Assembly (NCBI GenBank): GCA_021827925.1
Contig: JAKATZ010000033.1
Span: forward strand, 1 to 49,828
From: Microcaldota archaeon
GTDB taxonomy: Archaea > Micrarchaeota > Micrarchaeia > Micrarchaeales > CABMGC01
Reading direction: 5' to 3'
Length of the DNA stretch: 49,828 nucleotides
In this document: in pieces, positions 12,620 to 27,653 of the stretch
How positions within the stretch are numbered: the stretch's first letter is position 1
How the letters are laid out: each line of letters starts with the position of its first letter
Translations under genes and position numbers: made by a program
Notes under the pieces: model-generated
Told to the model about the DNA's origin: nothing
What the model saw: the letters and a program-made list of their open reading frames with translations, nothing else
Databases searched by the model: none

Positions 12620-13567
12620 TCAACCCTTTCCAATTATGTCATCTATTGTACGCGCAACGGCCTCCCTAGAGCTGAATCCGGGTGAAAATCCGAACTCTCT
12701 GGCTTTTCTGTTGCTTATGAAGTTGTCGGTTATGTCTCCTGCCCACCCTTCCTTTGTATCTCCGTATTTAATCACCGCCCCAGGCGCTACTTTATCTACC
12801 ACCATCTCCGCGATCTCCCTGACGCTTATCTGGTCATTCGATGCAAGGTTGAATATGTTCTCACGCTCTTCAGATTTGCCATAAACGTGCAGTATGCCGT
12901 TTATGCAATCTTCTACATATATGTAGCTCTTTTTCTGGCCGCCGTTCCCGAGAACATCCAGATGGCTGCCGTCGCTTCTAAGTTTTTTGACAAAATCAAA
13001 TATGACTCCATGCGTTGCGTGCCTGCCTATCACGTTCGCAAATCTGAATATATAGAAATTGAACTTGTAAAGGTTAGAGTACGCGCTTATTAGGGCCTCG
13101 GAACCAAGTTTCATTGCACCGTATATAGATACTGGCTTCAGCGGCCCGTAATCTTCCGGGGTGGGCTTCACTCCCGCGTATCCGTATATGCTGCCGGAAG
13201 ACGAAAAGAGGATGTTTCCAATGCCATTCTCCCTTATCGCCTCAAGCACGTTGTATGTCGAGACTATTCCCTGCTCTATGGGATTCAGCGCCCCGAGCTT
13301 GACGTTCGGGTTTGCTGCAAGATGCACGACCGCGTCTATTCCCTTGCCTTTCATGGAATCGGAGAGATGCTGTTTATCAAGCACATCACCCCTGATGAAC
13401 TCGGCACCTTCCTCCACAAGCGCCGAAGCAAATTCCTCCTTTCCCGAGGAGAGGTTATCATACACTATCACCTTTGCCCCTTTCTGGAGAAGCAGCTGTG
13501 CAATGTTGCTGCCAATAAATCCCGCGCCCCCAGTCACAAAAAAGGCCCTGCCACCTATCTTCTCCAT
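12620..13567 (-). CDS. galE: NAD-dependent sugar epimerase, UDP-glucose 4-epimerase-like
   Basis: This 315-residue extended short-chain dehydrogenase has the NAD-binding GGAGFIGS near residues 13-20. The catalytic triad region is SSSGSIYG (Ser about 124) with Tyr149 and Lys153 in YGAMK. Archaeal proteins of this type convert UDP-glucose and UDP-galactose or related sugars. Exact substrate cannot be read from sequence. It follows the UDP-sulfoquinovose synthase gene by 9 nt and is surely co-transcribed. ATG 13567 is chosen over TTG 13570. Confidence 0.88.
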   Translation of the reverse strand: MEKIGGRAFFVTGGAGFIGSNIAQLLLQKGAKVIVYDNLSSGKEEFASALVEEGAEFIRGDVLDKQHLSDSMKGKGIDAVVHLAANPNVKLGALNPIEQGIVSTYNVLEAIRENGIGNILFSSSGSIYGYAGVKPTPEDYGPLKPVSIYGAMKLGSEALISAYSNLYKFNFYIFRFANVIGRHATHGVIFDFVKKLRSDGSHLDVLGNGGQKKSYIYVEDCINGILHVYGKSEERENIFNLASNDQISVREIAEMVVDKVAPGAVIKYGDTKEGWAGDITDNFISNRKAREFGFSPGFSSREAVARTIDDIIGKG

Positions 13568-13576
13568 CAAAATCCC

Positions 13577-14842
13577 TTATCCGGGAGAACCCTCCGCTCC
13601 GAGCTCCGGCGGTTTTCCAGTGAATCCCTTTGTTATGTACCTATAGAGCCACGCCTCCTTCTTCGAAGCCTCGCTGTTTTCGCTCCTATTCCAGTACACG
13701 TTTGGCATGAGTAGGCTCTTCTTTCTTATCCACACGCTCCTGTATCTGTCAAGATCCTTTATTATCTCCCTTATCTGTCCATCTACGCTGTGTTTCGGTT
13801 TAAACCCCACGCTAGGGAGCTTTTCGTGCACAACTTCGTAGTAGTGCTCCTGCTTCTCGACTCTTGGATTTTCAACAGTCTCGAACGTGGACTCGAACCC
13901 AAGCTCCTCTCCTATCTTCTTCACCTTCTCGGCAAGCTCGTAGGTATTGTAGGTCCTGTCCAGCTGGTTGACTATTCTGTATTCACCCTCCGCTGGTGGG
14001 TTCTCGGTCAACAGGAAGAGAGCGCTTATGCTGTCTTCAAGTGAAAGGAAACCCCTTGTCATGAGCCCCTTCCCGTATATCAGCAGCTTCTTAAGGGCTA
14101 TGAGCTGGGCGCAGTACTTATTTATGACAGTGCCCCAGATGGAGTCTATGTCTAGCCTTGTAAGGAGGCCCTCGTCTATCATCTCCGCTGTCCTGTTTCC
14201 ATACACAACTCCCTGCATGACATCGGTGGCCCTCAGTCCCCACACCCTGTTTGCGAACGCTACATTGTAGCTGTCGAATATCTTGCTCTGGTGGTACCAT
14301 GAACCACCCATCCTTGGCACGGTTATCTTGTCTTTCCTGCCTTTGTATTCGATATCCATGAATCCCTCCTCTATGGCTATGTTTGGGGTGCCGTACTCTC
14401 CCATCGATCCCATCTTCAGCAGATGGGCTTTTGGTGCGTACTTGTGCATGGCAAATAAGAGGTTCAGATTGCTAGACACGTTGTTAACCTGCGTGTAAAG
14501 CGCATGGGTAGTTGATATTTGCGAATAAGGCGCACTTCTCTGTTGGGCAAGGTGTATTATCGTTTCAGGCTTGTACTTCCTTATCAATGCCTCTACGAAA
14601 GCGGGGTGCTTGAGGTCCCCTTCTATCACATGCATCTTCTTCCCTGGATAATGCTTCTCAAAGCGCTGCGCACGTTCTTTCAGGTCAGCGCCTATGGGCA
14701 TCGCGGAGATGCCGCCCACGTCCGCAACAAGCCTGCGCGTTGCGTAGTTATCCACAACCACGACCTCTCCATACGCATTCGCCATTTTCATTGAAAGAGG
14801 CCATCCTATGTATCCATCAGCTCCCAGTATCATTGCCTTCAT
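13577..14842 (-). CDS. agl3: UDP-sulfoquinovose synthase (SQD1/Agl3 family)
   Basis: This 421-residue extended SDR closely resembles plant SQD1 and Sulfolobus Agl3, which join sulfite to UDP-glucose to make UDP-sulfoquinovose. The N-terminal GADGYIGWPLS binds NAD. The segment GSMGEYGTPNIAIEEG matches the SQD1 signature, with Ser146 where SQD1 has Thr145. Tyr183 and Lys187 in WYHQSK complete the catalytic set. The tail after about residue 390 is extra. The gene has its own possible TATA in the 66-bp gap upstream and heads the pair with galE. Function is well supported by motifs, but the final glycan or lipid acceptor is unknown. Confidence 0.9.
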   Translation of the reverse strand: MKAMILGADGYIGWPLSMKMANAYGEVVVVDNYATRRLVADVGGISAMPIGADLKERAQRFEKHYPGKKMHVIEGDLKHPAFVEALIRKYKPETIIHLAQQRSAPYSQISTTHALYTQVNNVSSNLNLLFAMHKYAPKAHLLKMGSMGEYGTPNIAIEEGFMDIEYKGRKDKITVPRMGGSWYHQSKIFDSYNVAFANRVWGLRATDVMQGVVYGNRTAEMIDEGLLTRLDIDSIWGTVINKYCAQLIALKKLLIYGKGLMTRGFLSLEDSISALFLLTENPPAEGEYRIVNQLDRTYNTYELAEKVKKIGEELGFESTFETVENPRVEKQEHYYEVVHEKLPSVGFKPKHSVDGQIREIIKDLDRYRSVWIRKKSLLMPNVYWNRSENSEASKKEAWLYRYITKGFTGKPPELGAEGSPG

Positions 14843-14908: not shown

Positions 14909-16363
14909 CTACCGCCTGTAATTTTTGGATATGAATCCCGCTATATCGAGTATGCCCAGCCTGTTGCCTCTTGCAAGCCCCTTCGGGTAGCATCCGAATA
15001 TCCCCTGTCTCGTATGGTCTCCCCTCTTCGGCGCTTCGGGTTTCATGAATCTGCTGCTTTCCGAGAAATTGAATATGTCTATGGTATAGCCTTCCCCGGC
15101 CTCAGCGAAAAGGTCTGGCGCCATAAACTTTCTCGTGCCTTTATAGTATTCCTGTGCATCGTAAACCGAGACAATTAGCTTCTTTCCTTCCGGATCCCTG
15201 AGCTTCTGCAATTCTGCCTTCAATACCCTCTTTATCTTCTCCTTCTCAGTATCATCAACAAATCCCTGCTCGAACCTTTTGTCATTTATCCATATTGTGC
15301 ATACGTTTATGTTAGATATTGCCGCGAATGCCTTTGTTTTCTCCATGTTAAAGTCGAACAGGTGCATTCTTGCGTATCTACCTCCGCCTCCTGAGAAAAG
15401 CCTTCCTGCCGAAGAGAAGACTGCACGTTTTGCCGCATGTGGCAGTCTATCATAGGTCTTCCTAAGCCCTGTCTTGAGCAGCATCTCCCTTAGCTCGTAT
15501 GGCAGCCTCCCCTTCTCTGTTCCGTCTTCAGCTTGCCTGCTTTTAAGTGTGATGTATCCTTTCTCCAGAAGCCACGAATTGACCAAGAATTTCTCCTTTA
15601 TGGGCTGCGCCCCATGGTCCGAGACAATCATCATCCCTTCGCCCCGTCGTCCGGCCCTCTCCATCACGAACCCAATATACTTATCTATCTCCATGTATAT
15701 TGGCAATAGCAATCTTTCCATCTCTTTCATGTTCATTACAAAATGTTGAATCCTGTCCGTTTCGGTAAAACACACGTAAGTGAAGTCGTACTTTTCCGAG
15801 CCTATCGCTTCCATTGCCAGTTCTGCTCTATCATGGACGCTTTTTGTGAATATCGCTGCTCCCTCCTCAACATCCATCCTGCCCTCCTTCATGTCTTTTT
15901 CTATCTCCGGTTCGCCGTAAAAACCGTGCTTTTTCATAAGCCTGCGGAGGAAAGAGCTTTCGGTCTTTGCCTTAAGCGGAAATCCCGTAATCAAGTCTAT
16001 GTTTCTGTATCCTGGCAGCCTTGTCTCCATTGCTGGGGTTATGATGAGGCATCTGAATCCGCTATCCGCAATATTCTTCCAGAACGGCGGGCACGAAACA
16101 GAATCATACTCGGCAAGGTCCGGGGTGTAATCCTTCCTCATCTCAAAGAAGTCAGGCACACCGTGCTCTCCCGGAGGCAGTCCCGTGTATATGCTGGGCC
16201 ATGCTGCTCCTGTCATTGGGGGAAGAGTGGATTCCATCTCGGATATAAGCCCCGCTGTGAGAAGCTTCCTGAAATTTTCCATCCCCTTAAACCTGCTCAG
16301 CTTATGGATAAGCCAGAGAGGTGCGGCGTCTATGCCAATAAGATGCAGCTTCCTTCTATTCAT
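14909..16363 (-). CDS. Alkaline-phosphatase-fold phosphodiesterase/nucleotide pyrophosphatase
   Basis: This 484-residue protein belongs to the type I phosphodiesterase/nucleotide pyrophosphatase branch of the AlkP superfamily. LIGIDAAP supplies the first metal Asp. The nucleophile is a Thr in PPMTGAAWPSIYTG. ETDRIQHF and SDHGAQP provide the other metal ligands. It follows the GT4 gene by 11 nt within the sulfo-sugar cluster, so it may hydrolyse a nucleotide-sugar or lipid-phosphate intermediate. That role is inference. ATG 16363 is preferred to the track TTG 16369. Confidence 0.85.
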   Translation of the reverse strand: MNRRKLHLIGIDAAPLWLIHKLSRFKGMENFRKLLTAGLISEMESTLPPMTGAAWPSIYTGLPPGEHGVPDFFEMRKDYTPDLAEYDSVSCPPFWKNIADSGFRCLIITPAMETRLPGYRNIDLITGFPLKAKTESSFLRRLMKKHGFYGEPEIEKDMKEGRMDVEEGAAIFTKSVHDRAELAMEAIGSEKYDFTYVCFTETDRIQHFVMNMKEMERLLLPIYMEIDKYIGFVMERAGRRGEGMMIVSDHGAQPIKEKFLVNSWLLEKGYITLKSRQAEDGTEKGRLPYELREMLLKTGLRKTYDRLPHAAKRAVFSSAGRLFSGGGGRYARMHLFDFNMEKTKAFAAISNINVCTIWINDKRFEQGFVDDTEKEKIKRVLKAELQKLRDPEGKKLIVSVYDAQEYYKGTRKFMAPDLFAEAGEGYTIDIFNFSESSRFMKPEAPKRGDHTRQGIFGCYPKGLARGNRLGILDIAGFISKNYRR

Positions 16364-16374
16364 TTCCAATAGAA

Positions 16375-17460
16375 CTACCTCTTGGAACGCAGCCCGTTTA
16401 TTATCCTCATGTAAGACTCCATATTCCTGTCAGCGTCAAAATCCTTGGAATACGAAAGAGCGTTTTTTGAAAGCCGTTTCCTGAGATCGCTGTCCTTGTA
16501 GAGCCTGATGAATTTCCTTGCAAAATCCTCCAGATTTCCGTACTCGTAAACGAGGCCGTTGTATCCGTCTTTGACGATGTGCCGTCTCGGCCTGTAGCTG
16601 ACAACAGTGTCGTTCTTCGTATTGACTAGAAGCGGAAGTCCGCAGGCCATGGCCTCAACAAAAGTCCTGCTCATTCCTTCCCACTCCGACGCAGATACAA
16701 AGAAAGGCGCCGTGTTATAAATCCTGACGAGTCTCTCTTCATCAACGTAACCTTCGAACCTAACGTTTCCCTCAAGTGCAAAATCTGAAACAAGCTTTCT
16801 GTATCTCTCCTCATGGGGTCCGGTGCCTATTATGCTGATAAGCCTTTTTCCATCAAGCCCTCCAAGTTTCCTGGCTCTTTCCATCCCTCTTATCAGGAAG
16901 CTTACCTTCTTCTGCCTCTCGTCCAGCCTGCCTACGTATATTGCACCTTCCATGCTTCTACGCTCTCCTGTATTTTTAAATACTTTATTTGGGGCGATAG
17001 GTACGTACTCTATCCTTGTGCGCTTGCCGAAGAACATTCTGGCATTCTCGCATTGTTCCGCGGATATCGCTACGTAGCAGTCCAGCCACTTTCTCATCTC
17101 ATGCATGAAATGTTGCCTGAGAAGCATCTTCGGCAAAAGCTTCTTAATTCCGGAATTGCTGAAATTAAGGAGGACGTTTCCCCTGTCAGTGTATATGAAC
17201 TTCGGCTGCCTTCCCTTTCCTATGATATACTTGCTTATGAATGGCACGTCCCGTATGGAATTTATCATGACAATATCATATCCGCCGCCCAGCTTTTCAG
17301 CAGCAACGGATTTCACATCGGGGTCTATCCTCGAGTAATCTGCAAAAACCTCAACATTGTATCCTTTCTGCCTTTTGAGGTATCTGTACATGTCGTACGT
17401 GGCTTTTGCCGCACCTCCGAAAGTTTTGAAGGATCCAGATTCCATCACAAGTATCTTCAT
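16375..17460 (-). CDS. GT4-family glycosyltransferase
   Basis: This 361-residue GT-B enzyme has the N-terminal SFKTFGGAAKATYDM and the C-terminal donor-binding region IYVGRLDERQKKV, EGYVDEERL and SEWEGMSRTFVEAMACGLP. The last contains the Glu-x7-Glu pattern typical of GT4. It would add a sugar to a lipid-linked or protein acceptor at the cytoplasmic face. It starts 8 nt after the CysN stop behind an agggagat Shine-Dalgarno. This tight coupling suggests that it may use the sulfated sugar made by the cluster. Confidence 0.88.
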   Translation of the reverse strand: MKILVMESGSFKTFGGAAKATYDMYRYLKRQKGYNVEVFADYSRIDPDVKSVAAEKLGGGYDIVMINSIRDVPFISKYIIGKGRQPKFIYTDRGNVLLNFSNSGIKKLLPKMLLRQHFMHEMRKWLDCYVAISAEQCENARMFFGKRTRIEYVPIAPNKVFKNTGERRSMEGAIYVGRLDERQKKVSFLIRGMERARKLGGLDGKRLISIIGTGPHEERYRKLVSDFALEGNVRFEGYVDEERLVRIYNTAPFFVSASEWEGMSRTFVEAMACGLPLLVNTKNDTVVSYRPRRHIVKDGYNGLVYEYGNLEDFARKFIRLYKDSDLRKRLSKNALSYSKDFDADRNMESYMRIINGLRSKR

Positions 17461-17468
17461 GAATCTCC

Positions 17469-18683
17469 CTACTCTACCAATCCTATCCCTGAAAAGCTCC
17501 CATTGCTATAGATCATGAACCTGCCAAGCTCAGGTATTCTCCTGAATTGCGCATAGACTAAAGGCCTAACAGTCTCTATCTCAGCATAAGCCGTGTTCTG
17601 CATAGGGATGATCCTTGCCTTCCCTGTTCTCTTCCCTGTCATTATGTCGGTGGTTTCGATTACTTTAATCGCAGCACATTCCGAAGCAATCCCATTCATC
17701 TTAATCGAAACATCGCCGGAGATATCCGAGACTATGAATATCCTGGCTTTTAACGCAACTGAAGACTCTATGCCTGCTCCCTGTGAGGAGATCACGCTAC
17801 CCCTTACCTCAGAGCTTATTCTCTCTTCCGGGACAAATGCTATGTTCTCCCCCTTCAGCGCACTCTCCTTCTTCTGTTCCCCTACAAAAAGTTCTGTTAT
17901 TCTCATGACACTTCCCTGCGGCATCAGGCTAAGCTCCTCCCCCTCCATTATTTTCCCCGCCACTACCCTGCCCATTACGATCCCCTTTTCACGGTCAAGG
18001 AATCCTCTCAGCGTGGCGACACCTTCTTTCTGTGCATCTCCATTGTCGACCGATTTCCATGAAAGCAGCTCCACAAGCACAGTGCCATTATACCATCGCA
18101 TATTGCCCGATGGCCGGCATAGATTCTCTGCATTATACGCTGATACTGGCACAAAGAAAATCTCCCGGAAGGATATGCCAACCTTCATGATATACTCCTC
18201 AATCTCCCTCTTTGTATTCTCAAATATCCTATCACTGTATCCTACAGCATCCATCTTGTTTATCGCTACGACAAGCTTCCTTATTCCTAGCATGCTGGCT
18301 ATGAAAAGATGTCTCCTTGACTGCTCTGTAAATCCTTCTATTTCCCTGGCTGATACTATCAGTAGCGCAGAGTCTGCATAGGAAGCCCCGCTCATCATGT
18401 TCTTGATAAGCTCTTCATGCCCTGGGACATCGATGAACTCAATTCTTGATCCTTTGTAAGTCAAATACGCCCTTGTGGTGTCTATCGTCATCTCGTTTTT
18501 TCTTTCTTCCTCGAAGCTATCCAAAATGTAGCCTGGCTCAAACTTCCTGCCTAAGGATTCACTCGTTTTCCTTGCATCGTCTACCCTCTGCGCGGTGACG
18601 GCGCCTGTCTCCATGAGCAAGCTTCCGATAAGGGTGGACTTTCCATGGTCCTTGTTTCCCAGCACTACTATCCTGCTTTCCAT
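17469..18683 (-). CDS. cysN: CysN: GTPase subunit of sulfate adenylyltransferase
   Basis: This 404-residue translation-factor-like GTPase has G1 GNKDHGKST (9-17), G3 DVPGHE and G4 NKMD. CysN couples GTP hydrolysis to formation of adenosine 5'-phosphosulfate by CysD. EF1-alpha-like beta-barrel domains follow (FLDREKGIVMGRV). The segment ERKNEMTIDTT resembles the ERxRGITID-type switch of the family. It lies 29 nt after the CysD-like gene, as expected for a two-subunit enzyme. ATG 18683 is preferred to TTG 18686. It is slightly shorter than bacterial CysN and has no APS-kinase domain. Confidence 0.9.
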   Translation of the reverse strand: MESRIVVLGNKDHGKSTLIGSLLMETGAVTAQRVDDARKTSESLGRKFEPGYILDSFEEERKNEMTIDTTRAYLTYKGSRIEFIDVPGHEELIKNMMSGASYADSALLIVSAREIEGFTEQSRRHLFIASMLGIRKLVVAINKMDAVGYSDRIFENTKREIEEYIMKVGISFREIFFVPVSAYNAENLCRPSGNMRWYNGTVLVELLSWKSVDNGDAQKEGVATLRGFLDREKGIVMGRVVAGKIMEGEELSLMPQGSVMRITELFVGEQKKESALKGENIAFVPEERISSEVRGSVISSQGAGIESSVALKARIFIVSDISGDVSIKMNGIASECAAIKVIETTDIMTGKRTGKARIIPMQNTAYAEIETVRPLVYAQFRRIPELGRFMIYSNGSFSGIGLVE

Positions 18684-18712
18684 CAATCACAACCCGAAAT
18701 CCGGACACGCCT

Positions 18713-19501
18713 CTACATGTATCCCAGCGCCCTTAACTTTTCCATTACGTACTCCTTTTCCTTGTCCTGGTCCCTTCCCGCACGCTCTTCTTCCGTTGTG
18801 TCCTCAAGCTCCTTTATTATCTCATCTATGTTTCCCGCGCTTGACCTTACTGGCGATGTGCAATGCACGCAGCCAAGGCTCCTGTATCTGTTTCCATTCC
18901 TTGAAAGGTACAGCGGATTTATCGGTATCCTCTCCTCCTTCGTATATCTCCAGATGTCGGTCTCCCTCCAGTCAAGGAGAGGGTGCACCCTGATATGCCC
19001 TTCGCCATCAGGGTTGGAAGAATAATTGTCCCACATCTCTGCCTGCTGATTCTTGTAATTCCAATTAAAATCCTTGTCCCTCGGGCTGGTGTACCTTTCC
19101 TTTGCTCTTATCCCGTGTTCATCCCTCCTTATCGAGACTATGAGCGCATCGAATCCATACTCCTTCATAACCTCCTTGAGTGCTTCTGTCTTGTTGCTTC
19201 CGCAGCAGCTGTATCCGGATATCTCTGGTTTTATCTTGCTCTTTGCCACGATCAGATCAAGCTCCCAGCTCTCAGCGAGCTCCTCCCTGAATGCGTACGT
19301 TTCAGGGAAATCTATCCCATTATCTATGTGTATAACTGGGAATGGGACTTTTTTCATGAACGCCTTCCGTGCGAGCGCGAGCATGGCCGTTGAATCCTTT
19401 CCCATGCTCCAAAGCGCTGCCACTTTCCTTGCATTCATCTTCGCTTCACGCATTATGTATACGCTGCCCTCAACAAGCGCCTTAAGCTCCTCGTTTGCCA
19501 T
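18713..19501 (-). CDS. cysD: CysD-like sulfate adenylyltransferase with APS-reductase-type cysteines
   Basis: This 262-residue PP-loop protein has SMGKDST near residue 32. It shows CysD features: RRDEHGIRAKERY, KNQQAEMW, RVHPLLDWRETDIWRY and IPINPLY. Unusually, it also has Cys99-Cys100 and Cys211-x2-Cys214 (GCVHCTSPV), followed by EERAGR. The CC/CxxC quartet is the iron-sulfur signature of assimilatory APS reductases, where typical CysD has GCYPLTGA. It could therefore activate sulfate with CysN, reduce APS to sulfite, or use the cluster structurally. Its place in an SQD1 cluster makes a sulfite role attractive but unproven. Confidence 0.8.
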   Translation of the reverse strand: MANEELKALVEGSVYIMREAKMNARKVAALWSMGKDSTAMLALARKAFMKKVPFPVIHIDNGIDFPETYAFREELAESWELDLIVAKSKIKPEISGYSCCGSNKTEALKEVMKEYGFDALIVSIRRDEHGIRAKERYTSPRDKDFNWNYKNQQAEMWDNYSSNPDGEGHIRVHPLLDWRETDIWRYTKEERIPINPLYLSRNGNRYRSLGCVHCTSPVRSSAGNIDEIIKELEDTTEEERAGRDQDKEKEYVMEKLRALGYM

Positions 19502-19509
19502 ACTATCAA

Positions 19510-19794
19510 CTATTTGTTTATATTCAGAAGCCCTCTCAGGTATTCTGTAGCCCCAGAAATTCCCTCACCTTCCTCAATGAATATGGGCACCTTTCCCAAT
19601 GGGGATTCCTTTTCATCGTACAATTCGGCATAAGAACTCTTAAGGTCCTGCTGCCTTGCTATCTTTCCTTCCCCAAAGATTATCCTGTAATATCTTGCGC
19701 TGCTGGATCTCAGCTCCATCCTGAATCTTTCCCAGTTATGCCTGCTCGGCGAAACGGAAAGTTCCCTGACAATGCCTTCGAATTTCTCCTTCAT
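19510..19794 (-). CDS. Small unknown protein in the sulfur operon
   Basis: This 94-residue acidic/basic soluble protein lies 4 nt after the ribbon-helix-helix gene and 8 nt before cysD, so it belongs to the same transcript. I recognise no domain. A helical N-terminus (KEKFEGIVREL) is followed by a mixed region with RYYRIIFGEGKIA and a terminal GATEYLRGLLNINK. There are no cysteines, membrane segments or catalytic motifs. Conserved neighbours in other genomes would be the best clue to its job. Confidence 0.7.
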   Translation of the reverse strand: MKEKFEGIVRELSVSPSRHNWERFRMELRSSSARYYRIIFGEGKIARQQDLKSSYAELYDEKESPLGKVPIFIEEGEGISGATEYLRGLLNINK

Positions 19795-19798
19795 CGCA

Positions 19799-20017
19799 TC
19801 AGCCAGTATATCCCAGTGCCTTCAGCTTGTCTATAACCGCACCCCTATCCTTGCGTCTTCCAAGCTCCATGTCAGCAACAGTCTCACGCAATATGTATGT
19901 TGCGTAGTCAGACACCGAAGAGAACCCCGTCTTCTTTATCTTTTCCTGCATCCTTTCGAACAAAGGCGTCGGTATGGTTATTGTTGTGTGTTTCCTTCTC
20001 AAGCCTCCTCTTTTCAT
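19799..20017 (-). CDS. Ribbon-helix-helix (CopG/Arc-like) regulator
   Basis: This 72-residue protein has a basic start (MKRGGLRRKH), then a beta strand TTITIPTPLFERM and two helices ending in SVSDYATYILRET, the ribbon-helix-helix DNA-binding pattern. It is the first gene of the sulfur cluster and may control it, possibly by binding its own promoter. Its C-terminus KLKALGYTG closely resembles the CysD-like C-terminus KLRALGYM two genes downstream. The 4-nt gap to the next gene implies co-translation. Confidence 0.8.
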   Translation of the reverse strand: MKRGGLRRKHTTITIPTPLFERMQEKIKKTGFSSVSDYATYILRETVADMELGRRKDRGAVIDKLKALGYTG

Positions 20018-26204: not shown

Positions 26205-27632
26205 CTAAGAAACATTTCCTGCAAGAAGCGAACGCGCGACATCGCGCCGTTCCTTTATTATGTTCTCCAGTTCTCCCGGATCCTGCGCTAGATCGTACAG
26301 TTCGTCTATCCTTCCCTTTCCATAGAAGTGTAAAAGCTTATAATTCTCGCTGTATATCGCAGTCGCAGCGGTATTGTATCGTACCTTTGCCTTGTATATT
26401 CTATCCGCATGCTTAGATCTCCTCTTGAAACGAAGGAGCAGCCCTGTATCCCAAACCTCCGATATGCCTGTGTGGTCTGAGAATACAAACCTCTCCTTTC
26501 TCAGGGAACCATCGATATCCTCCTTGCCGTATCCTAGGCCAACTATCGCATCTCCAAGCGCAGAGAGACTGACGTTCTGCTCTATCCTGCGTCCGCTGCC
26601 GATCTGCTTACCATCGATAAAACGGGCGGTCACGAGAGGAACCTTGGATATCTCATTATACGGGAAAAGAGTATGGAACATCTGGCCGTGCTCCATGAAG
26701 GCCTGACCATGGTCGCTTGTCATTACAACAACAGCATTATCCAGAACTCCGCGTTCCTTCATTATTTCCAGTAACTCCTTCACCTTCCCGTCTAGGTACA
26801 TCAGCCTTTCTTCGTACGCCTTCCTTATGGTCCACACGTCTTCTGTGCCTGCGATATTGCTCACGTAAAGCCACTTGTCCTGGCTGACATACTTCTTTGT
26901 GACAAGCCCTATTGGGTAACCTTCGTGTGCTTCCATGTAGTTGAGAAATAGGAATTTGTTTCCATGGGGCGCCTGCGAGAGATACGAATCCACGAGCTTG
27001 TTTGTGAGTGCGGCCCCCTGATCAAGATTGCCGAAACCATACTCTTCGCTGTACCTCCTGTTCAGTGTTCCCCTGAGGCTCAGATAAAGTCTGTCAAGAT
27101 GATGCCTAGGTATCGCAAGGGATATTCCATACGCAAGCTCGGTAAGCCCTTCCCTGAGGGTGTCGTTGCTTATGATCCCAAGCGCGGTCTTATGGGTTTT
27201 GAGCTTGTTTTCTATGAATACATTCTTGATGTAGGAGAATCCGGATCCGAGCCCTGTGGAAGGGCTGATGAACGGGTTATTGGAGAAGAGAGATGTGCTA
27301 TAACCTAGGGATGCCATGCGCTTCGCAAGCGTCATATCCCCTTCCTTTATATACCTGTTCTTGGACACCAGCGGGTCCGTGTTCTTATAGTAGTTCTTTA
27401 TCGCATTCCCCCTAAGTCCTTCAATGCTGCGCACTCTCCTTCCGGTGAAAAGCGAAAGGTGCGAAGTGAGCGTATAGGTTCCTGGCGCAACAGCATTAGC
27501 ATAAACCGTACCCCTATCGCATACCGCATCGATCGCAGGCAGTTTCAGATCACCGCCATAATGTCTGAGGCAGTCAGCTCTAAGCGTATCAAGCATTATG
27601 AAAACGATGTTAGGTCTACCCCCCTTCCTCAT
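26205..27632 (-). CDS. Sulfatase-fold (AlkP superfamily) enzyme with Thr nucleophile
   Basis: This 475-residue protein starts NIVFIMLDTLRAD, the first metal-binding motif of sulfatases. Where sulfatases have Cys/Ser for formylglycine (C-x-P-x-R), this has Thr54 in YTLTSHLSLFTG. It is therefore more likely a phosphatase or phosphotransferase than a sulfatase. TSDHGQAFMEHG gives the second metal site. There is no signal peptide, so it probably acts in the cytoplasm. ATG 27632 is preferred to the track start because it directly precedes RKGGRPNIVF. The gene is convergent with ubiA, 11 nt apart. Confidence 0.85.
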   Translation of the reverse strand: MRKGGRPNIVFIMLDTLRADCLRHYGGDLKLPAIDAVCDRGTVYANAVAPGTYTLTSHLSLFTGRRVRSIEGLRGNAIKNYYKNTDPLVSKNRYIKEGDMTLAKRMASLGYSTSLFSNNPFISPSTGLGSGFSYIKNVFIENKLKTHKTALGIISNDTLREGLTELAYGISLAIPRHHLDRLYLSLRGTLNRRYSEEYGFGNLDQGAALTNKLVDSYLSQAPHGNKFLFLNYMEAHEGYPIGLVTKKYVSQDKWLYVSNIAGTEDVWTIRKAYEERLMYLDGKVKELLEIMKERGVLDNAVVVMTSDHGQAFMEHGQMFHTLFPYNEISKVPLVTARFIDGKQIGSGRRIEQNVSLSALGDAIVGLGYGKEDIDGSLRKERFVFSDHTGISEVWDTGLLLRFKRRSKHADRIYKAKVRYNTAATAIYSENYKLLHFYGKGRIDELYDLAQDPGELENIIKERRDVARSLLAGNVS

Positions 27633-27653
27633 CAGAATACTTCCTCCGGGCAA

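Follow-up and report, generated by a model that had tools for sequence, protein, structure and literature searches.

A CysD-like protein with the cysteine quartet of APS reductases in a Micrarchaeota operon

The described systems closest to the protein reported here are P. syringae CysDN, the heterodimeric ATP sulfurylase of structure 1zun, and the APS reductases (APR). In APR and PAPS reductases, APS is attacked by the C-terminal cysteine of the ECG[L/I]H motif rather than by the cluster, and sulfite is taken over as S-sulfocysteine. Sulfite is also needed by the UDP-sulfoquinovose synthase SQD1. For Agl3 of Sulfolobus, which uses sulfite in vitro, the authors call the transfer of sulfite in vivo still unknown (PMC4388408). 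Our literature search, with most subscription journals outside its reach, found no report of an iron-sulfur site in CysD, and its queries on Micrarchaeota with sulfoquinovose or sulfate adenylyltransferase gave no paper on a CysDN-SQD1 operon.

We analysed a contig of 49,828 nucleotides from a Microcaldota archaeon (JAKATZ010000033.1; this whole stretch is called the window), whose source genome measures 969 kb and is 93% complete. The window holds an operon with genes for a CysD-like protein and an SQD1-like enzyme. With a probability of roughly 0.7, we read the former as CysD, one subunit of a CysDN ATP sulfurylase driven by GTP; the protein would keep an APR-type metal site, make APS without reducing it and pass the APS on to surface-glycan sulfur chemistry.

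Assignment to the CysD family

The open reading frame at 18713–19501 occupies exactly this interval on the minus strand, and the plus strand is interrupted by stops. The gene and its marked positions are as follows.

18713–19501, minus strand: CysD-like catalytic subunit of heterodimeric ATP sulfurylase with an APR-type cysteine quartet, 262 aa
19202–19207, minus strand: Cys99-Cys100 codons, proposed cluster ligands 1 and 2, aligned with the CC of APS reductases
18860–18871, minus strand: Cys211-Val-His-Cys214 codons, proposed cluster ligands 3 and 4, aligned with the CxxC of APS reductases
18773–18787, minus strand: ERAGR (residues 239–243), a motif common to CysD (as ERxGR) and APR; E239, R240, G242 and R243 are invariant in quartet and non-quartet CysD

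The motifs that a sequence-only reading had named as CysD-type (RRDEHGIRAKERY, DWRETDIWRY) and as APR-like (GCVHC, EERAGR) are all present. Close relatives of the protein share 62–76% identity and come from records named Candidatus Micrarchaeota. Among the NCBIfam models, the protein scores 287 bits against the CysD model NF003587, above the cut-off of 195, and 207 bits against the CysD model TIGR02039, below the cut-off of 396.6; it reaches 61 bits against TIGR02055 APS_reductase (cut-off 235.3) and likewise stays below the cut-offs of the CysH models. Its Pfam assignment is PAPS_reduct, a match that does not separate CysD from CysH. A profile built from quartet and non-quartet relatives aligns with the whole of P. 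syringae CysD (1zun) at 4e-113, and its matches to APR and PAPS reductases are no better than about 1e-12. The AlphaFold model, built from 21 sequences, has a pLDDT of 82 and a pTM of 0.84, with residues 93–97 beside the CC pair below 50. In a fold search with this model, the best match is 1zun_A (44% identity, TM 0.86 by target) and the second is the APR 2goy_A; TtuA is also among the matches.

In trees of 52 and 49 rows, CysD is split from CysH/APR at full or nearly full support (100/100), and the window protein lies inside CysD. The same placement and the 100/100 split are recovered when the four cysteine columns are masked. The protein thus falls inside CysD among members that carry these cysteines, which is largely the placement that the sequence-only reading had named as speaking against its own proposal. 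The characteristic CysD residues are kept, namely the PP-loop SxGKDS, RRDExxxRAKER, ERxGR and the GY at the C-terminus. The ERAGR tail, previously taken as a mark of APR, loses that value: CysD has S/TERxGR as well, and Skermanella CysD has ERAGR without the quartet, so the motif is not diagnostic. Judged from these sequence comparisons, the protein is a CysD subunit, a variant of a known enzyme that carries an APR-type cysteine set.

The cysteine quartet and APS reduction

The window protein contains four cysteines in total, C99, C100, C211 and C214. None of the four varies in any of the 66 distinct Micrarchaeota homologues, and any further cysteine position is filled in at most one row, an invariance which indicates that the four are under selection as a set, beyond chance. 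Their proposed likeness to the CC...CxxC ligands of APS reductase was borne out column for column: the quartet columns are the CC and CxxC of all eight quartet-bearing CysH/APR references, and in a profile alignment the quartet positions fall on CC and GCxxCT in the APR of M. tuberculosis (7lhr). The accompanying statement that ordinary CysD lacks such cysteines holds for the familiar types, with HTCL or YTCL at these positions in the E. coli, Sinorhizobium and Bacteroides types, VRDC in Streptomyces CysD and RSEI or similar in the Skermanella group. It fails for other CysDs, since CCCC is found in those of Ilyobacter and Gemmatirosa and of four viral contigs (L127, L128, L129 and L136).

The fewest quartet changes on the masked tree number four. 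Because the quartet occurs both in CysDs and in APR-type CysHs that have ECG[L/I]H, an ancestral quartet followed by losses is the simplest account of these four changes. On this simplest reading, for which the sample of CysDs from outside Micrarchaeota is small, the quartet would be a metal site inherited from the ancestor of the PAPS-reductase/CysD fold and lost in several lines that include the familiar CysDs. The CC...CxxC ligand set retained from that site would hold a cluster, or less likely zinc, beside the sulfate end of the active site, with a role in structure or substrate binding rather than in electron transfer.

Two of the viral contigs show the surroundings of their quartet CysD. 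In L128 (4953–9157), genes for a CysN-like GTPase and then for a PF01663 phosphodiesterase follow it contiguously, and in L129 (2924–5831) a PF01663 gene lies upstream of it. In a few Micrarchaeota (L058, L060, L074, L120; G184, G171, G093), a second PP-loop protein adjoins CysDN or takes its place. This second protein has neither the cysteine quartet nor ECGxH, and it carries ERAGR and an LRALGY-type tail.

All nine CysH references contain the catalytic cysteine of ECG[L/I]H. It is absent from the window protein and from all 66 Micrarchaeota homologues, whose C-termini are CysD-like, and no APS reduction is expected where this cysteine is missing. Assignment as an APS reductase or as a bifunctional enzyme was rejected on the missing catalytic cysteine together with the tree position in CysD. 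A catalytic cysteine supplied in trans was rejected as well, for the conserved operon partners tested provide none: the two small upstream proteins have no conserved cysteine, and the best cysteine column of CysN is filled in 17 of 36 rows. SQD1 has one cysteine column at 8 of 8, which is probably a feature of the SQD1 family itself. In Ilyobacter, the quartet CysD stands in an operon with AprA, ferredoxin, CysC, a CysN with a kinase domain and a transporter, and its position next to a separate AprA fits a quartet CysD that works as an ordinary sulfurylase. Most probably, the window CysD activates sulfate and leaves the product unreduced.

Two other views of the quartet have to be weighed against this. 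Four invariant cysteines suit zinc as well as a [4Fe-4S] cluster, and sequence alone does not separate the two, so that the protein could be an otherwise plain CysD with a purely structural zinc site. However, the quartet agrees with the APR [4Fe-4S] site in both spacing and position, down to the rare adjacent CC, and we consider zinc quite unlikely. The sequence-only reading had proposed a protein that might form APS, reduce it, or do both; in its bifunctional form, APS would be made, reduced to sulfite through a [4Fe-4S] cluster and the sulfite handed to SQD1. The exact alignment of an APR-type quartet, the tight linkage of SQD1 and the need of SQD1 for sulfite in a genome that yielded no CysH, AprA or sulfite reductase all speak for such an enzyme. 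The proposal does not stand up to the 100/100 grouping with CysD, the 61 bits to TIGR02055, the C-terminal cysteine that acts in APR in place of the cluster and is missing here without a substitute, the quartet CysD beside AprA in Ilyobacter, and the many CysD-bearing relatives that have no SQD1 (counted below). We hold it to be highly improbable.

The operon and the possible destination of APS

The genes from the RHH-like protein to the epimerase all lie on the minus strand and are tightly spaced, and an endonuclease-III-like gene overlaps. Besides CysD, the operon comprises the following.

19799–20017, minus strand: RHH-like small protein, 72 aa, named from the look of its sequence and its conserved position; no Pfam match; CysD-like C-terminal tail
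19510–19794, minus strand: conserved small protein, about 95 aa, directly upstream of CysD; no Pfam match; homologues in the same place in most relatives
17469–18686, minus strand: CysN-like GTPase, 405 aa, 26 bp downstream of CysD; PF00009 131 bits; TIGR02034 CysN 207 bits, below the cut-off of 336
16375–17460, minus strand: GT4-family glycosyltransferase (PF00534), 8 bp after CysN
14909–16369, minus strand: alkaline-phosphatase-superfamily phosphodiesterase (PF01663)
13577–14842, minus strand: UDP-sulfoquinovose synthase (SQD1/Agl3-like); NF041015 514 bits over 1–384 of 384, below the cut-off of 575
12620–13570, minus strand: NAD-dependent sugar epimerase/dehydratase (PF01370), 6 bp after SQD1

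The order RHH, small protein, CysD, CysN recurs across Micrarchaeota, and CysN lies downstream of CysD in nearly all relatives. In the tree, the window CysN is distinct from the EF-1A-like gene of the same genome; the CysN tree is poorly rooted owing to a very long IF-2-like outgroup and was used for this distinction only. CysN shares 44% identity with its nearest tree row, compared with 74% for CysD, and this fast evolution, together with the score below the TIGR02034 cut-off, suggests that the partner may be altered. In the proposed reaction, CysDN would convert ATP and sulfate to APS and PPi, with GTP hydrolysed by the adjacent CysN. Of 60 relatives, 50 encode the RHH-like protein, in most cases at the CysD locus, and most genomes that lack CysD do not have it (homologues L156–L185); it is probably a dedicated regulator. 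The C-terminal tail L[KR]xLGY is found in 21 of 22 RHH-like proteins, in 36 of 36 CysDs and in 1 other ORF among the 730 in the loci compared, and the RHH-like protein may bind to CysN or monitor the assembly of CysD.

Two further observations concern the surroundings. An ORF of 419–425 aa, which may be an antisense or mobile-element ORF, occurs in the CysD operon of two SQD1-bearing genomes (L092:11808–13085 and L093:8563–9822). A sulfatase-superfamily protein (PF00884, 79 bits) is encoded at 26205–27653 on the minus strand, 7 kb from CysD, and its nucleophile position reads as Thr, compared with Cys or Ser in true sulfatases.

SQD1 is encoded near CysD wherever the two occur together, with a single exception. 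Strong SQD1 matches were found in 17 of 98 relatives, 11 of which also have CysD and 6 of which do not. In 10 of these 11, across seven genera, the two genes are separated by 0.9–4.0 kb (always within 4.1 kb). Random placement would give this linkage with a probability of about 2e-18, a figure that serves as a guide only since the genomes are related. In one genome (G013), CysD, CysN and SQD1 are contiguous. Eleven other Micrarchaeota SQD1s score 621–647 bits against NF041015, compared with 514 for that of the window. In contrast, SQD1 is absent from 73 of the 84 CysD-bearing relatives, so its supply cannot be the general role of CysD, and this candidate role was rejected. The earlier idea that the protein supplies sulfite to the neighbouring SQD1 therefore keeps its genomic basis where SQD1 exists and fails as a general account. 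Under the preferred reading, APS would enter surface-glycan sulfur chemistry. In genomes with a linked SQD1, such as that of the window, it would lead towards sulfite and UDP-sulfoquinovose, and elsewhere to another consumer.

No convincing user of APS was found in the searches of this genome and its relatives. In agreement with the sequence-only reading, the source genome has no separate CysH, its one PF01507 gene being the CysD itself; sulfite reductase (NIR_SIR) and AprA were not found in it either. In 60 relatives, AprA matches reach at most 46 bits, far below the cut-off of 642, and are probably other flavoproteins. In 98 relatives, the APS kinase matches are weak and do not exceed about 23 bits; a few pass the Pfam cut-off narrowly, and none is full-length. 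In the same relatives, Sulfotransfer_3 gave no match, and Sulfotransfer_1 gave one that is broken by stops. An ATP sulfurylase without a recognised outlet for its APS is strange. In 19 of 35 CysD-bearing genomes, a PF01663 gene is located no more than about 5 kb from CysD, even though each genome has only about two to three such genes; together with the PF01663 gene that follows CysDN in L128, this suggests that CysDN may serve surface-glycan chemistry together with a PF01663 enzyme.

That association can be pressed further, to APS as the final sulfuryl donor, with the PF01663 or another enzyme moving sulfate to a surface glycan or lipid without a PAPS step. The frequent PF01663 neighbour, its contiguity with CysD and CysN in L128, its upstream position in L129, the adjoining glycosyltransferases and the lack of a convincing APS kinase or sulfotransferase among the matches are consistent with it. 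However, we know of no APS-dependent sulfotransferase in the alkaline-phosphatase superfamily to which PF01663 belongs, these genes could encode phosphodiesterases or sulfatases that act on this glycan, and the sulfotransferase search consisted of two Pfam models (Sulfotransfer_1 and Sulfotransfer_3). Direct donation from APS thus seems unlikely. CysDN might instead have been re-used to adenylate a substrate other than sulfate, as a parallel to the PP-loop ATPases with [4Fe-4S] clusters (TtuA, TtcA, DndC); the diverged CysN, the TtuA fold match and the lack of a known APS user in the genome point that way, but the protein retains the CysD motifs and has by far its best match in P. syringae CysD, which leaves such re-use with very little probability. 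In the boldest reading, which we regard as unlikely, an iron-sulfur CysDN would be the sole sulfate-activating or -reducing enzyme of Micrarchaeota and some viruses; linked enzymes would bring APS directly to sulfated or sulfonated surface glycans without APS kinase, APS reductase or sulfite reductase, and the cluster would help to hand on the sulfur group.

Comparison with known systems

P. syringae CysDN (1zun; NF003587/PRK05253 group) resembles the window pair in full-length homology, SxGKDS, RRDExxxRAKER, ERxGR, the GY tail and the CysN partner. The window protein is shorter, with 262 aa compared with about 300, and lacks the insert before the LGC motif; its CC and the second cysteine of its CxxC are absent from 1zun and E. 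coli CysD. In addition, the window operon, unlike the P. syringae system, has no linked CysC or CysH. APR (P. aeruginosa 2goy, M. tuberculosis 7lhr; TIGR02055) shares the fold, the CC...CxxC in the same columns and the arginine motif, whereas the window protein has no ECG[L/I]H cysteine, scores 61 bits against TIGR02055 and lies across a 100/100 branch. A parallel for the cysteines is the CysD of Ilyobacter polytropus and Gemmatirosa, in which all four align. In contrast to the full operon of Ilyobacter, with transporter, CysC, AprA, ferredoxin and a CysN-kinase, the Micrarchaeota CysDN comes without a known APS user.

The more interesting point is the absence of a recognised outlet for this ATP sulfurylase. 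Should the quartet be an ancestral metal site that some CysDs have kept, sulfate activation and APS reduction would descend from one iron-sulfur ancestor, and unrecognised metalloproteins would be encoded by many genes now annotated as plain CysD. The neighbouring SQD1 gene belongs to the family of Sulfolobus acidocaldarius Agl3 and plant SQD1; unlike the window operon, the account of Agl3 (PMC4388408), in the part available, does not mention a linked CysDN. The operon described here makes two matters testable, namely the in vivo sulfite source of UDP-sulfoquinovose synthases and the use of activated sulfate by small DPANN archaea with CysDN alone.
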